Source of the DNA: Deltaproteobacteria bacterium
GTDB taxonomy: Bacteria; Desulfobacterota; Desulfobacteria; Desulfobacterales; JAFDCJ01
DNA: 7,569 bases
Direction: 5' to 3'
Assembly: GCA_024277475.1 (NCBI GenBank)
Contig: JAJRVC010000461.1
Span: 1-7,569 of the forward strand
Of this stretch, positions 1,707 through 7,119 are shown piece by piece. Positions within the stretch are counted from its first letter, which is position 1. Each line of letters starts with the position of its first letter. The notes beneath the pieces are model-generated. The model was not told the DNA's origin and made no database searches. It saw nothing but the letters and a program-made list of their open reading frames with translations. A program made the position numbers and the translations under genes.

Positions 1707-4550
1707 TCATTCTTTTTCCGTGGTCGTTTTTGAAAACTGTTTCAGGATGCCTTCAAGCTTTTCCAGTTCCCTGCCGTATCCGGCCCAATCCCCCCGGCGC
1801 AGGTAATCTTTAGCATTATTGTAGTATCTCAAAGCCTGTTCTCCGAGAACGGAGATTTTTCCTGTTTTGGGCTTATTAGAGGAAATATGGTCTTGTTTGA
1901 TAAATTGGCCCCCAAGCACCTGATTCAACGCTTGATCGAGCTTTTTCTCCATAGCAACCCGGTTGCCTATGGCCACAATTACCCGTTTCAGTTCCGGCAG
2001 GGCCGCAGTCGCTGTATTTCCTTTCCTTGCAGGTCGTGTCGACTGTTGTTTCTGCGACTGCTTGTTTTTTTGGGGCGGTGCCGGTTGTGTTTCCCGTTGC
2101 GGCTCCTGCTGGGCCTCCAGATAAATCGGCTCCACATAGATGAATGAGTCACTCACCGGAATAGCCAATAGATTACCCCTGATGACCCGCGAACCGCGCT
2201 GACCCCAGAGGCTGAGTTCTCGGGAGATATCCGTTTGTTGGTCGATCCTGGCCTCGATCTGCATGGGGCCGTATACCAGTTTTTCTTTTGAAAGTTTATA
2301 AACCAGCAGTTTGCCGTAGTGGGGCAGATCGCTTCTGGCTGCCAGCCACGCGATCATGTTGTCCTTTTTAGAGGGCGTATAGGGCAGCATCAGGAGAAAT
2401 TCCCCCTTATCCTCATCAGGCAGCTTTATGATGATATAGTATGGCTTCATCAGCTGGCGGTTGTCACCATATATCTCATCCGGAGGCTCCCAGAGGTCTT
2501 CCTGGTTGTAGAATACCTGGACGTCCTGCATGTGATATTTGGCGTATGTTTGCACCTGGATTTCAAAGAGATCATTGGGATATCGAAGATGCTTTTTCAG
2601 ATCAGCGGGCATTTCATCCAGGGGTTTAAAAAGAGCCGGGTATACTTTTGAGTATGTTTTGAGAATCGGGTCTTTTGCGTCAATTGTGTAGTAGGTGACA
2701 TGTCCGTTATAAGCATCGATGATCACTTTGACCGAGTTTCGGATGTAGTTGAGTTCTTTTTTCCTGAATGGAGTTTTGGATCGTTTGGAGTATGGATACA
2801 TATTAGAGGCGGTATAGGCATCCTGGATCCAAAAGAGCTTGCCTCCTGAGACCACCATATAAGGGTCGGTATCATAGGCAAGAAACGGGGCGATGGCGAT
2901 CACCCGTTTCTTAATCCGGCGGTTAAACATTATCCTGCTTTCAGGGGTCAGATAAGTAGTGAACAGTATCTGAGGATCCTGAAATTCAATGGCAAAGAGC
3001 AGTCTTTTCATAAAAGAATTGATAAGAACTCCACCCTGGCCCTGGTAATTGGTATAGACGTTTTTGTCCCCTCTGGGATAATCAAACTCCTGGGTGCTGG
3101 TATTCACCAGGATATATTCAGTCGTTTTTTCTCCGAAATAAATTTCCGGCCGGTCTAACTTCAGATTGATATTCACCGAGGGGGGAACGTCCTTAATCAT
3201 GAGTTGCGGTAAACCTTCGGAGGTAACCTCATTGACCGGGCTCATGGCCAATCCGTATCCGTGGGTGTAGATCAGGTGTTTGTTGACCCAGGTCTTCGCC
3301 TTGGGCGGGAGATGATCTACCACCAGTTCCCGGGCAGCCAGCATGACCTGTCGATATTGATTGTTGATCATATAACGATCGACATCAACGTTATTGAAAT
3401 CGTAATAGAGCCTTATTGATTGAATCTGGCGGTAGGTCTGGAGCAGGGGCCGTTCATCCCACACCCGGATGTTTTGGATGGTTACGTCATGGTTTTTGAT
3501 CTCTTCAGCACTCAGGCTGTTATTGACCTCAAAGTCGACCTCCTTAATATTATTCAGGTTATAGGCCCGGCGGGTAAAATCGATATTATGGGCTATGTAG
3601 GGTAATTCCTTGGCCAGTTCGTTAGGTTTGACCACGAACTGCTGTACCAGGAGCGGAAGACCGGTGGCGAGGACCCCAATGGCACCAACCCATATTGCTG
3701 CAGAAATTAAGAGAAATTTTATCTTTAGTCTGAAGGCGTTATAAATGATAAAAAGGCACAATAGAAAGGACATTACCATTAAGATCCTGTAAGCGATGAT
3801 CTTTATGCTGACATCCGTGTAGCTTGCGCCAAAAGCAGCGCCCTGGGTAGAGTAGAGAACTCCGTAGGTCTTTAACTGGTAACCCCATGCGACCAGGAGG
3901 ACTAAAATTCCGGCGAGTACCAGAAGATGCTTGCCGACTTTATCCGCCATTTTAACTTTGGGGAGAGAGGCCGGCCTGTCCTCCGCCAGAACGAGTTCAC
4001 CGATTATCTGGATCGCGCCGTCTTTTATATACCATATAACGGTCACCAGAGCTGCAAAGAGAAGGACAAGCAGCAATTGTTCCCGCACAAACAGGTAGAA
4101 GGGAAGCGAAAAGACGTAGAAACCGATGTCCCTGCCGAATATGGGATCAGTGCTGCCAAAGGGTTGCTGATTTAGATAACTAAGCACCATATTCCATTGT
4201 ATGGATCCCTTTGATGCAATCATAAAACTAACAATCAGTATTGCGGCCAGAATTAGGGTATTCAGAGTCCTGCCGGAGACAGGCATGCCTGCTATTTCGG
4301 TAATCTTCTGCTCACTTTCGCTATAAAAACGTTGAGCCGCATAAAGATTGACGGACAGGGTGATGATGATAAGAAACCAGATCACCGCGGCAACTCCGTA
4401 TTTGCCCAGTACCATCGTCCAGAACACCGGCGCTAAGTTCAGGTTCCCGAACCACAGCCAGTCAGGATAAATTGAAACAATTATCCCCACCAGGATAAAC
4501 AGCAGAATTGCTAAGATTCCCAATAATATAGTCGATTTCCCTATCTTCAT
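1707..4550 (-). CDS. UPF0182 family large integral membrane protein
   Basis: This 947-aa protein is a full-length UPF0182 member (family usually about 900-1000 aa), whose molecular function is unknown. Seven hydrophobic segments lie near residues 7-27, 46-70, 96-113, 145-175, 208-226, 250-272 and 278-303, followed by a large non-membrane domain. Family hallmarks are visible: DPIFGRDIGFYVFSLPFY (135-152), PNELAKELPYIAHNIDFTRR (309-328), YTHGYGLAMSPVNEV and RPEIYFGEKTTEYILVNT in the middle, and NRRIKKRVIAIAPFLAYDTD further on. A Gln/Pro/Lys-rich linker (about 806-840) separates the main domain from a helical C-terminal segment ending ...LEGILKQF. The ATG at 4548-4550 has GGAG nine bases upstream. 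It overlaps the stop of a doubtful small frame by ATGA. The gene faces the acetyltransferase and has no functional partner in the window. Confidence 0.96.
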   Translation of the reverse strand: MKIGKSTILLGILAILLFILVGIIVSIYPDWLWFGNLNLAPVFWTMVLGKYGVAAVIWFLIIITLSVNLYAAQRFYSESEQKITEIAGMPVSGRTLNTLILAAILIVSFMIASKGSIQWNMVLSYLNQQPFGSTDPIFGRDIGFYVFSLPFYLFVREQLLLVLLFAALVTVIWYIKDGAIQIIGELVLAEDRPASLPKVKMADKVGKHLLVLAGILVLLVAWGYQLKTYGVLYSTQGAAFGASYTDVSIKIIAYRILMVMSFLLCLFIIYNAFRLKIKFLLISAAIWVGAIGVLATGLPLLVQQFVVKPNELAKELPYIAHNIDFTRRAYNLNNIKEVDFEVNNSLSAEEIKNHDVTIQNIRVWDERPLLQTYRQIQSIRLYYDFNNVDVDRYMINNQYRQVMLAARELVVDHLPPKAKTWVNKHLIYTHGYGLAMSPVNEVTSEGLPQLMIKDVPPSVNINLKLDRPEIYFGEKTTEYILVNTSTQEFDYPRGDKNVYTNYQGQGGVLINSFMKRLLFAIEFQDPQILFTTYLTPESRIMFNRRIKKRVIAIAPFLAYDTDPYMVVSGGKLFWIQDAYTASNMYPYSKRSKTPFRKKELNYIRNSVKVIIDAYNGHVTYYTIDAKDPILKTYSKVYPALFKPLDEMPADLKKHLRYPNDLFEIQVQTYAKYHMQDVQVFYNQEDLWEPPDEIYGDNRQLMKPYYIIIKLPDEDKGEFLLMLPYTPSKKDNMIAWLAARSDLPHYGKLLVYKLSKEKLVYGPMQIEARIDQQTDISRELSLWGQRGSRVIRGNLLAIPVSDSFIYVEPIYLEAQQEPQRETQPAPPQKNKQSQKQQSTRPARKGNTATAALPELKRVIVAIGNRVAMEKKLDQALNQVLGGQFIKQDHISSNKPKTGKISVLGEQALRYYNNAKDYLRRGDWAGYGRELEKLEGILKQFSKTTTEKE

Positions 4551-5322: not shown

Positions 5323-5540
5323 AAATCACAATGATCGATCCATCTCAGGCGGACCAAACAACTGGTTAAATAGAAAAGACAGAGCGACTTGTCGGGTCGT
5401 AGCCGAAGGCGAAGCCTGAAGCGATACCACAAATTTTCAATCTTTCCGCCGCTGGCGGATCAATATTCAATCCCCCGATAAAGCAGGATTTTCGCTGCAC
5501 TACGGCCCCGCCAAGCGGGATCTTCGCTTCGCTACGACCG
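5272..5540. repeat. REP/BIME-like cluster of palindromes and inverted repeats
   Basis: Three short hairpins share a GC-rich 3-base-loop design: TCCGCC-GAA-GGCGGA (5272-5286), TCCGCC-GCT-GGCGGA (5445-5459) and CCCGC-CAA-GCGGG (5507-5519). In addition, GGTCGTAGCCGAAGGCGAAG (5395-5414) recurs inverted at 5522-5539, with 18 matching bases and two single-base gaps. The second arm supplies the last codons and the stop of the anti-sigma gene. The 316 bases from 5216 to 5531 hold no gene that I can see. Spacing is irregular, so this is not a CRISPR array; it resembles a mosaic of REP-type elements. Confidence 0.7.
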
Positions 5541-5804
5541 GCTAAGCTTGTCCGGGTTGGGTATGTTCTGAATGATTTCTTTCAATTTTCGGGAGAATTC
5601 CTGGGGGACCGGTTGGTCTTTTGCGTTTTTGCAAATTGCAACCGTCTTTTTCAGGGTTTCCAGGCAGCTGAAGCAGGCCACGCAGTTATCGGCGTGTTTT
5701 TCAATTTCGGCACAGGTGACATGATCCAGTTCCCCGTCGATATATTCAGAGAGCTTCTGAAACATCTCCAGACAATGTTTATGGTCGTGATCATCGCTGG
5801 TCAT
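5532..5804 (-). CDS. Zinc-binding anti-sigma factor (ZAS / zf-HC2, RsrA-like spacing)
   Basis: This is a 90-aa soluble protein with no membrane segment. It carries the anti-sigma zinc motif H-x3-C-x2-C as His37, Cys41, Cys44 in KHADNCVAC, preceded by the typical helix with YIDGEL (21-26). Further cysteines lie at 11, 31, 47 and 58. It should bind the ECF sigma factor encoded immediately upstream and release it on a signal. ATG 5804 is preferred over TTG 5810: AGGA lies 10 bases upstream, and with this start Cys11, His37, Cys41 and Cys44 take the same positions as in the redox-sensing RsrA of Streptomyces. The gene overlaps the sigma gene by 14 bases, as expected for a stoichiometric pair. Its last residues (LSRS) and stop come from an inverted-repeat element. 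Confidence 0.88.
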   Translation of the reverse strand: MTSDDHDHKHCLEMFQKLSEYIDGELDHVTCAEIEKHADNCVACFSCLETLKKTVAICKNAKDQPVPQEFSRKLKEIIQNIPNPDKLSRS

Positions 5805-6414
5805 TTTCAAAATATCCTTTCAGTTTATCTCTTAAATAAAGCCGGGCACGGTGAAGCCTCACTTTTACATTGGATGGCGACAAGCTGAGAATCTGTGCGG
5901 TCTCCGCCGTGCTGAATCCTTCAATATCCCGCAACACAATAACCAGACGATATTTTTTTGGAAGTGACAGGATTTCCTGGTTAACCGTGATGGCAAGCTC
6001 CTGGTTCAGCAATTTATCCAGGGGCATCAGTGCCCAATCCGGGACGTGGTCCGGTACCTCGGTTTCATTTCCGGGGAGAAAATCATCTAAGGACAGTTCT
6101 TTTTCCGGGGCAAATTTAGACTTGCGTCTTTTCTTAATACAAGTGCTGGCCGCCACTTTGTACAGCCAATTTTTAAATTTTGTTTCGTATCTGAAATCTT
6201 TTAAATATCTGAAAACATTTAAAAATGTTTCCTGTATCATGTCCTCGGCATCACTGTGATCCCGACACATCCGCAAACTGAAATTGTAAAGCTTCTGTTC
6301 GTAGCTTTTGACAAGGTCATGAAATTTATCTGTCTGGCCGGAGTTAATGGCCTGGATCAGTTCAAAATCTTTATCTTGAATCTTCTTGTGATTTGGATTT
6401 TTTTCCGCTGTCAT
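5791..6414 (-). CDS. ECF-type RNA polymerase sigma factor
   Basis: This 207-aa sigma-70-family factor contains only regions 2 and 4. Region 2 spans about residues 30-100, with DAEDMIQETFLNVFRYL (core binding) and FRYETKFKNWLYKVAAS (-10 recognition). Region 4 spans about 138-197, with LPKKYRLVIVLRDIEGFS and the helix-turn-helix AETAQILSLSPSNVKVRLHR (-35 recognition). The linker (101-137) is acidic and somewhat long. Start ATG 6412-6414 has AGGTGA nine bases upstream. That Shine-Dalgarno sequence is the loop and stem of a hairpin just after the UGA of the preceding tiny gene, so translation of the two is probably linked. The regulon is unknown. A zinc anti-sigma factor follows with a short overlap. 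Confidence 0.95.
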   Translation of the reverse strand: MTAEKNPNHKKIQDKDFELIQAINSGQTDKFHDLVKSYEQKLYNFSLRMCRDHSDAEDMIQETFLNVFRYLKDFRYETKFKNWLYKVAASTCIKKRRKSKFAPEKELSLDDFLPGNETEVPDHVPDWALMPLDKLLNQELAITVNQEILSLPKKYRLVIVLRDIEGFSTAETAQILSLSPSNVKVRLHRARLYLRDKLKGYFENDQR

Positions 6415-6419
6415 AGTCG

Positions 6420-6452
6420 CTTGTCACCTGACAAGAATCTTTCAGTCAGGTG
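6420..6452 (-). promoter_or_regulatory. Two mutually exclusive hairpins over a UGA and the sigma-gene ribosome binding site (SECIS candidate)
   Basis: On the minus strand the UGA of the tiny gene (6448-6446) is followed by ten bases and then CTTGTC-AGGT-GACAAG (6435-6420), a perfect 6-bp stem with a four-base loop. A bacterial SECIS is an in-frame stem-loop just after the Sec codon with a small G-containing loop. The E. coli fdhF element has an apical loop that starts AGGU, and the position here is comparable. The alternative stem CACCTGAC/GTCAGGTG (6452-6445 with 6432-6425, 12-base loop) is also perfect and uses the same bases. Both structures hide AGGTGA, the sigma gene's Shine-Dalgarno sequence. 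A ribosome moving through or pausing at the UGA would open the 8-bp stem. Confidence 0.6.
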
Positions 6453-6535
6453 GAAATTCCCAGTTTCGGAAGGATGTAGACCTGGATCAAAAACCAGACG
6501 CCGACGATCCCCAGCACCACTAATAGGTCTTTCAT
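6446..6535 (-). CDS. Tiny single-pass membrane protein (29 aa to UGA)
   Basis: The frame starts at ATG 6533-6535, preceded by a strong AGGAG seven bases upstream, and it has its own promoter about 100 bases away. It encodes MKDLLVVLGIVGVWFLIQ..., one membrane helix followed by YILPKLGIST, then UGA. A short helix ending in LPKLG-x-x-T is familiar to me from small proteins of about 50 aa in this bacterial group that continue with a Cys-x4-Cys motif (recollection, unverified). The UGA stands exactly where the first Cys would be. The gene leads an apparent operon with the ECF sigma and anti-sigma genes. If the UGA is a true stop, this is a 29-aa membrane or leader peptide; if it is Sec, see the 54-aa version below. 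Confidence 0.7.
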   Translation of the reverse strand: MKDLLVVLGIVGVWFLIQVYILPKLGIST

Positions 6536-6590
6536 GGAGTATCTCCTCTGAAGCAGCTTCACATAACCGGTTCAAATTTTCCAAAAGGGC

Positions 6591-6653
6591 AAATTATCGA
6601 ATATGATCTGAGGTTATGGCACCACTTCGATAATTTTATACGCGGTTATCGAA
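6591..6653. promoter_or_regulatory. Three TTATCGAA sites around the promoter (operator candidate)
   Basis: TTATCGAA occurs at 6594-6601 and 6646-6653, and its complement TTCGATAA at 6626-6633. The first two in order form a perfect 11-bp inverted repeat, AAATTATCGAA (6591-6601) with TTCGATAATTT (6626-6636). The second and third flank the -10 box with a 12-bp gap, placing one site between -35 and -10 and another at the expected start point. This is where a repressor would bind. The right-hand site also contains the stop codon of the upstream gene. No regulator in the window is an obvious owner. Confidence 0.55.
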
Positions 6654-6663
6654 CAGTTGTCCA
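6635..6663 (-). promoter_or_regulatory. Sigma-70-type promoter of the tiny gene / sigma operon
   Basis: On the minus strand TGGACA (6663-6658) and TATAAA (6640-6635) are separated by exactly 17 bp, each one base from consensus. The -35 lies within the last codons of the cytochrome-b-like gene. Transcription would start near 6628, giving a leader of about 93 bases before ATG 6535. It is a housekeeping-type promoter, so the sigma operon need not depend on its own sigma. Octamer repeats overlap it. Confidence 0.65.
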
Positions 6664-7119
6664 CTGTTTTTTATAGACAAGGCAGTACAGGCTGACAAAC
6701 AAAAAAGCCATGACAAGTCCAAGATGGCTGAGATCCAGAAAAATAATAAAACTGGATGAAAAATTTGATTCGGTTAAATTCCTGATTGCAAGGAATATTC
6801 CGCTGGCCAGGATACCGACAAGCAGGGCACCGCGTACATACCCGCTGGCAGTCATTTGTATTGATTTGCGCTTTAACACCAGATAATCAATGATCATATA
6901 GGCGGCAAAAGCCAAAATTAATATGGCACCCAGGTAGTGGATATAGTGCGTTACAAAAAATTTAGCCAGCCAGCCCAGCCCAGGGATATCGGCGATATAA
7001 TAGCGTTTGAAAATAGGCATCTGACCAAAACCGGACAGGGCCAGAAAAAAAATTGTTATTAAGTAAAACCAGCGACCCGGCAAGCTGATCGTCCCGGTGT
7101 TACTTTGACCGTGATTCAT
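6646..7119 (-). CDS. Cytochrome-b-like membrane subunit (formate dehydrogenase gamma-type)
   Basis: This 157-aa protein has four membrane helices at about 16-36, 57-80, 94-112 and 122-148. Candidate haem ligands are His58 and His61 in THYIHYLGA (helix 2) and His132 in DLSHLGLVMAF (helix 4). With an iron-sulfur subunit encoded just upstream, it probably passes electrons between that subunit and the quinone pool or membrane haems, as the gamma subunit does in FdnGHI-type formate dehydrogenases or related oxidoreductases. It is shorter than FdnI (about 217 aa), and helix 1 starts GRWFYLITIF without the usual His, so it may hold one haem or none. ATG 7117-7119 has GGGAG eight bases upstream. The gap to the preceding gene is 52 bases. 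Confidence 0.75.
   Translation of the reverse strand: MNHGQSNTGTISLPGRWFYLITIFFLALSGFGQMPIFKRYYIADIPGLGWLAKFFVTHYIHYLGAILILAFAAYMIIDYLVLKRKSIQMTASGYVRGALLVGILASGIFLAIRNLTESNFSSSFIIFLDLSHLGLVMAFLFVSLYCLVYKKQWTTVR

Follow-up and report, generated by a model that had tools for sequence, protein, structure and literature searches.

The window, that is to say the whole stretch of 7,569 nucleotides analysed here (contig JAJRVC010000461.1 of assembly GCA_024277475.1, from a Deltaproteobacteria bacterium), contains on its minus strand a very short predicted selenoprotein gene, the tail of which overlaps the start of an ECF sigma factor gene; an anti-sigma factor gene follows. The features are listed below with the evidence used for each.

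6543..6547, minus strand: Shine-Dalgarno AGGAG of the predicted selenoprotein gene (sequence).
6371..6535, minus strand: predicted selenoprotein ORF of 54 residues, Sec at position 30, ending in TAA (sequence, homologues).
6449..6535, minus strand: codons 1–29, one membrane helix and the conserved LPKLGIST (translation, profile, structure model).
6446..6448, minus strand: in-frame UGA, the predicted Sec codon, replaced by Cys in other homologues (comparison).
6431..6433, minus strand: TGT, Cys35 of the U-x4-C motif (translation, comparison).
6420..6435, minus strand: predicted SECIS hairpin with a 6-bp stem, the loop AGGU and 16 nt from UGA to loop (comparison and the bSECIS model of PMC13188914).
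5791..6414, minus strand: ECF sigma-70 factor gene, with its start within the tail of the selenoprotein ORF, 34 nt downstream of the U of the UGA (sequence, family matches).
5532..5804, minus strand: zf-HC2 anti-sigma factor gene, best NCBIfam match RsrA (TIGR03988, below cut-off; family matches).

Read along the minus strand, the selenoprotein gene runs from the ATG at 6535 through MKDLLVVLGIVGVWFLIQVYILPKLGIST to the TGA at 6448-6446, and on through LKDSCQVTSDYDSGKKSKSQEDSR to the TAA at 6373-6371. The 29 codons before the UGA end in LPKLGIST, and the 24 codons after it place a Cys at +5 (U-x4-C). A preliminary description of this DNA had placed the feature correctly at 6371..6535 without naming the strand, which is minus. 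The AGGAG, the membrane helix ending in LPKLGIST, the in-frame UGA, the 24 further codons and the U-x4-C that it listed are all present, as is the perfect 6-bp stem with an AGGU loop ten bases past the UGA. The structure model of the selenoprotein revealed a helix at residues 2–24 (pLDDT 90 and 88 in the first two ten-residue blocks), followed by an unstructured tail modelled at low confidence (mean pLDDT 67.3). On average (n = 179) the tail contains 5.3 K/R and 3.8 D/E, and the N-terminal five residues are approximately neutral. The positive-inside rule relates the charge of membrane proteins to their topology, and under it the tail leans towards a cytoplasmic location.

A search with the 54-residue product as first query found six proteins, all of which terminate precisely at ...LGIST. 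Two profile searches extended the family: profile A1, which included four invented Cys-type probe rows, matched 267 proteins (best 120 of 267 listed), and profile A3, built from natural sequences, matched 1607 proteins at E <=0.001 (best 120 of 1607 listed). Because some of the relatives in A3 had come from A1, the searches are not independent of each other; both listings are biased toward forms that resemble the query rows. Among the 209 relatives from the matches listed, (i) 149 carry Cys at the UGA column, all as C-x4-C, in line with the Cys-x4-Cys relatives that the preliminary description had mentioned; (ii) 56 terminate exactly at the UGA column; and (iii) 4 were translated with W by their source and keep LKDSCQV or LRNSCQV. 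All 153 listed relatives that continue past the UGA column have Cys at +5. The truncated relatives are database entries for hypothetical proteins that break off at the Sec codon, most of them with 29 residues, which is the truncation by gene callers that had been anticipated. Few listed relatives have a named source; the named Cys forms among the matches listed belong to Planctomycetes, Candidatus Omnitrophica, Acidobacteriota and Candidatus Hinthialibacter, together with two records labelled Deltaproteobacteria. A Cys form may therefore exist inside or near the phylum sampled below.

At the DNA level, a genome collection of 84,980 species was scanned for the pattern QxYILPKLG; this yielded 128 matched stretches and 112 confirmed relatives, and in all 80 loci kept the column was TGA and the residue at +5 was Cys. 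A profile search (E <=0.001) of a phylum sample, comprising 297 genomes from the phylum to which Desulfosarcina widdelii belongs, found a family match in 122 of the 297 genomes (112 of those at <=4.4e-9), and DNA sequence was retrieved from 127 places (30 + 97 loci). The resulting 208 sequences (207 loci and the window) contained 207 family hits, one per sequence with none in L206. The Sec column was TGA in 196 of the 207 hits. Of the 11 others, nine show TGA one or two codons further on as the script places the column, and the remaining two (L205 and L207) look unrelated beyond the helix. TGC, TGT, TAA and TAG were found at this column in 0 of the 207 family hits, which refutes the possibility, raised earlier, of homologues ending at TAA or TAG in the same place. 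The final stops of the 196 TGA genes are TAA in 90, TGA in 68 and TAG in 38, so these organisms also use UGA for ordinary termination. A second phylum sample of 47 genomes, reached via a locus titled Candidatus Eisenbacteria (L017), gave matches in eight genomes at nine places, one of them (L208) being L017 itself; all nine have TGA, and three of the matches are weak.

Three of the 196 loci (L081, L084 and L085) duplicate earlier ones, leaving 193. Cys is found at +5 in 172 of the 193 distinct stretches and is absent in 21, in some of them through a one-codon shift; conservation past the UGA, a point left for checking in the preliminary description, thus extends from the 80 close loci to most of the family. 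In L190, L213, L214 and L215, insertions put the second Cys further from the UGA. Five loci (L182, L192, L193, L194 and L196) retain the UGA without Cys at +5 or +6, and their tails differ.

The stem in the window pairs positions 6435–6430 with 6425–6420 around a loop at 6429–6426. According to PMC13188914, the bSECIS model has a loop of 3–9 nt with G in the first two loop bases, a stem of 4–16 bp, a distance of 16–37 nt from the UGA and an MFE of <= -7.5 kcal/mol. The window hairpin fits this model in loop (AGGU), stem (6 bp) and spacing (16 nt, the lower limit). Taken alone it reaches -5.6 kcal/mol; the window's 49 nt reach -7.9 kcal/mol, but as a different pairing, and this 49-nt fold is by itself unremarkable (z -0.64, 50 of 200 shuffles as good). 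Rfam gave no match in the window at gathering score. The single-sequence fold is uninformative; support for a genuine hairpin comes from comparison across loci.

For this comparison, identical sequences were removed, which left 193 distinct 60-nt stretches. A hairpin of <= -4 kcal/mol in bSECIS geometry is present in 165 of them, compared with 15.4% of synonymous-codon shuffles; one of -2 kcal/mol or better is present in 183, and 10 have none under the bSECIS model. Pair 18-25, which joins the third base of the Cys codon to the base seven further on, covaries among 97 Cys-Gln stretches (UA 71, CG 21, UG 4, UC 1, CA 0; Fisher 1.6e-17, kinship ignored). Pair statistics were computed on an alignment of 56 hairpins, 54 of them distinct, in which 84.9% of cells pair (79.9% in shuffles) and 37 double changes occur (17.2 in shuffles), values that 0 of 500 shuffles equalled in either case. 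Pairs with a double change numbered four, as many as 86 of 500 shuffles also reached; further pair types, one of the five measures, were no higher than in shuffles (493 of 500 as high); and shifting the stem partner dropped pairing to 30–69%. RNAalifold returned no consensus pair for all 56 aligned hairpins and recovered the hairpin from 51, after removal of the shifted hairpins of L032, L039, L072, L079 and L080. The prediction that the hairpin after the UGA acts as a SECIS element is supported by its loop, stem and spacing, its covariation and its frequency far above that in synonymous shuffles.

Genes for selenocysteine insertion were sought in genomes of relatives, namely 50 hand-chosen hosts of the 80 and the 297-genome phylum sample. 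selB scored over its cut-off in 45 of the 50 host genomes and in 2 of 14 controls, and tRNA-Sec was detected at E <=1.1e-13 in 35 of the 50 (38 over the tool's cut-off). The five hosts without a full selB include G006, which has selB as two adjacent pieces together with selA; G009 has selA and tRNA-Sec, and G015 and G050 have selA. No selA, selB or tRNA-Sec was found in G008 (1.1 Mb), one of the 50 hosts tested. In the phylum sample, selB was present at 1e-62 in 263 of 297 genomes, among them 115 of the 122 family-positive genomes; the remaining 7 all have tRNA-Sec and 6 of them selA, so that every one of the 122 carries selB or tRNA-Sec. selB hardly separates family-positive from family-negative genomes (115/122 and 148/175) because most of the phylum has it.

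We conclude from this comparison of sequences that the window gene very probably encodes a small selenoprotein with selenocysteine at UGA 30, because the UGA is fixed in the fetched genomes, homologues carry Cys in its place, the U/C-x4-C spacing is kept, coding continues past the UGA, the hairpin covaries and Sec genes are present. SelB and Sec-tRNA would read UGA 30 as selenocysteine, directed by the hairpin ten bases downstream, and the product would be a protein of 54 residues with an N-terminal membrane helix and a selenol/thiol pair, Sec30/Cys35, just beyond the membrane. The unannotated 54-residue membrane selenoprotein proposed earlier is supported in this respect, and it belongs to a large family.

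Three other readings of the UGA were weighed. It might be an ordinary stop that closes a 29-residue membrane peptide, with the hairpin serving only as a regulatory RNA for the sigma gene; the database forms that end at the UGA column and, in 29 loci, a hairpin immediately ahead of the sigma start are what such a stop would leave. However, the identity of a stop would drift if the UGA merely terminated, so TGA in 196 of 207 hits, and TAA or TAG in none of them, counts against this explanation; the downstream residues also match Cys homologues translated as one protein, and hairpins occur in 183 of 193 stretches whereas the sigma gene accompanies just 29 of 193 loci. We regard an ordinary stop as very improbable. 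That these organisms decode the UGA as Trp, or read through it generically, is less probable still: the four metagenome records translated with W at the column would agree with it, but 68 of the same 196 genes terminate with TGA, 149 of the 153 full-length relatives among the matches listed have Cys there, and the SECIS-type hairpin and the Sec genes would be left unexplained. Synthesis of two peptides, by termination at the UGA and re-start at the next codon (UGAAUG), is suggested by the bases at positions 4-6 of the stretches, which follow the UGA and are A in 63%, T in 93% and G in 84% of 172 stretches, yet the next codon is CTG in the window and other codons elsewhere, and the Cys homologues are a single continuous protein; this too we consider hardly credible.

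With UGA 30 read as selenocysteine, what the protein does must be judged from its motif and its neighbours. We slightly favor the view that a selenylsulfide forms between Sec30 and Cys35 and that the pair works as a redox relay or sensor anchored in the membrane. The preliminary description had called the protein a redox selenoprotein; the selenoprotein part of that claim is supported, and the redox part is plausible, being one that we infer because U/C-x4-C is an invariant core, because thioredoxin and CcdA/DsbD-type genes are neighbors in some lineages, and because 18 loci have an ECF sigma gene and then a Cys-rich zf-HC2 anti-sigma gene. The gene row of L136 and L156, read gene by gene in both and with families checked for L136, consists of ArsR, the selenoprotein, a small Cys-rich protein, an FmdB-type zinc ribbon, thioredoxin and CcdA; the Cys-rich protein of L136 (66 residues) had no Pfam match. 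The script found CcdA-type genes near the selenoprotein gene in seven loci and thioredoxin in six; it misses the thioredoxin of L136 and the CcdA of L156, both found by eye. In L090, L101, L114 and L121 a CcdA/TlpA-type gene lies on the strand opposite to the selenoprotein. Such thiol-redox neighbors occur in only a minority of loci, and no neighbor gene is common to all 193.

Alternatively, the protein could be a selenoprotein in which Sec30 and Cys35 bind metal or heme as part of a small subunit of a membrane complex. Example partners would be the Fe-S and cytochrome-b-like genes upstream; of the 193 loci, 16 encode an Fe-S protein within the fetched stretch, 13 a cytochrome-b-like membrane protein and 19 MobB. 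These neighbors are confined to part of the family, however, and other lineages have Trx, CcdA and ArsR genes instead, so we consider a metal or heme subunit rather unlikely. Two other genes lie on the minus strand of the window. The one at 6646-7119 encodes a membrane protein of 157 residues that has relatives in 13 of the loci and matched nothing in Pfam at E 0.1 or in NCBIfam at E 0.01. The other, at 1707-4550, is an ORF of 947 residues, apparently a membrane protein, which may belong to the UPF0182 family.

The sigma gene, absent from the preliminary description, starts with the ATG at 6414 and overlaps the selenoprotein tail in another frame. An ECF sigma gene lies downstream in 29 of the 193 loci, all close relatives and the window included, and a Cys-rich zf-HC2 anti-sigma gene comes next in 18 of the 29; among the 11 without it, the contig of L001 ends first. 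The sigma start falls within the selenoprotein tail in all 29 (L001-L007, L012 and L014 among them). Measured from the U of the UGA, the start is an ATG at 34 nt in 9 loci, including the window, and an ATG at 40 nt in 19, and L037 has a GTG at 40 and an ATG at 43; for L022, the script's first sigma start was at 10, and the start at 40 was taken instead. An ATG at 34 or 40 is also found in 14 of the 164 loci without a sigma gene. In the 9 loci of the 34-nt class the loop forms part of AGGUGA, a 6-base anti-Shine-Dalgarno match with a spacer of 9 nt to the sigma start. The 40-nt class comprises 20 loci: in 18 of them a 15-nt spacer separates AGGUGA from the start, L022 has AGGUG with a spacer of 16 nt, and the loop of L037 has no anti-Shine-Dalgarno match. 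No other such match of >=4 bases was found 4-11 nt before the start in these 20 loci, so the sigma gene there would lean on ribosomes that arrive via the selenoprotein gene. The AGGTG loop is present in 28 of the 29 sigma loci, compared with 38 of 68 other Cys-Gln(CAG) loci (Fisher 3e-5, kinship ignored).

It is conceivable, though we hold it to be improbable, that events at the UGA set the output of the ECF sigma factor in the window's branch, making sigma translation selenium-dependent. SelB binding, Sec readthrough or termination at the UGA would then tune sigma translation, and selenium status would be sensed at the very codon that builds the redox protein. Against such coupling, kinship alone could yield the AGGTG loop bias. 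A spacer of 15 nt is too long for usual Shine-Dalgarno pairing, and the number of such spacers in the 40-nt class lowered our estimate. The anti-sigma factor of the window matches TIGR03988 (antisig_RsrA) at 35.9 bits, below the cut-off of 62.5 bits, and carries HADNCVACFSC, which by eye fits HxxxCxxC. The HxxxCxxC pattern is the zinc motif of RsrA-type redox anti-sigma factors.

This seems to be a common selenium protein that has been overlooked, with UGA-bearing relatives in many genomes of a large group to which sulfate-reducing bacteria belong. The case points to very short selenoproteins as a blind spot, their truncated forms being easily missed. The family contributes a one-helix protein with a U-x4-C selenol/thiol pair, and its conserved overlap with an ECF sigma gene makes selenium-dependent sigma control directly testable.

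The arrangement can be set beside several known systems. As in the SigR/RsrA pair, the anti-sigma gene follows the sigma gene, with the TIGR03988 match below cut-off; to our knowledge, no selenoprotein is part of the SigR/RsrA system. The E. coli-type SECIS sequence ggttgcaggtctgcacc is presumably the fdhF element. Comparison with this element, as printed in PMC3834832, revealed that both hairpins stand right after the UGA and carry AGGU on the loop's 5' side; unlike the E. coli-type element, the window loop consists of AGGU without further loop bases, and the stem sequences differ. Hypothetical protein DW, which the deep-Sep paper (PMC12013277) also predicts in Desulfosarcina widdelii, shares this host with our family (L018). 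DW is listed there with NF041197 and the motif GxU, whereas the window protein has S two residues before U, and ten family proteins had no NF041197 match. Scans of ten family proteins each against NCBIfam and Pfam gave weak, below-cut-off matches to unrelated families only. The accessible portions of the literature searched, including PMC9312934, PMC8318568, PMC4607533 and PMC8124441, contain no report of this selenoprotein family. The family GOS_A (PMC2398784) may be related. With that reservation, and with no family name found in the sources at hand, we file the proteins as a new family within the bacterial selenoproteins. In Table 1 of PMC13188914, as far as it was available, 119 predicted selenoprotein families are given, some without a listed motif, and no entry is described as a small one-helix U-x4-C protein; like the window family, those families combine a UGA/Cys pair with a SECIS-like hairpin and a presumed redox role.
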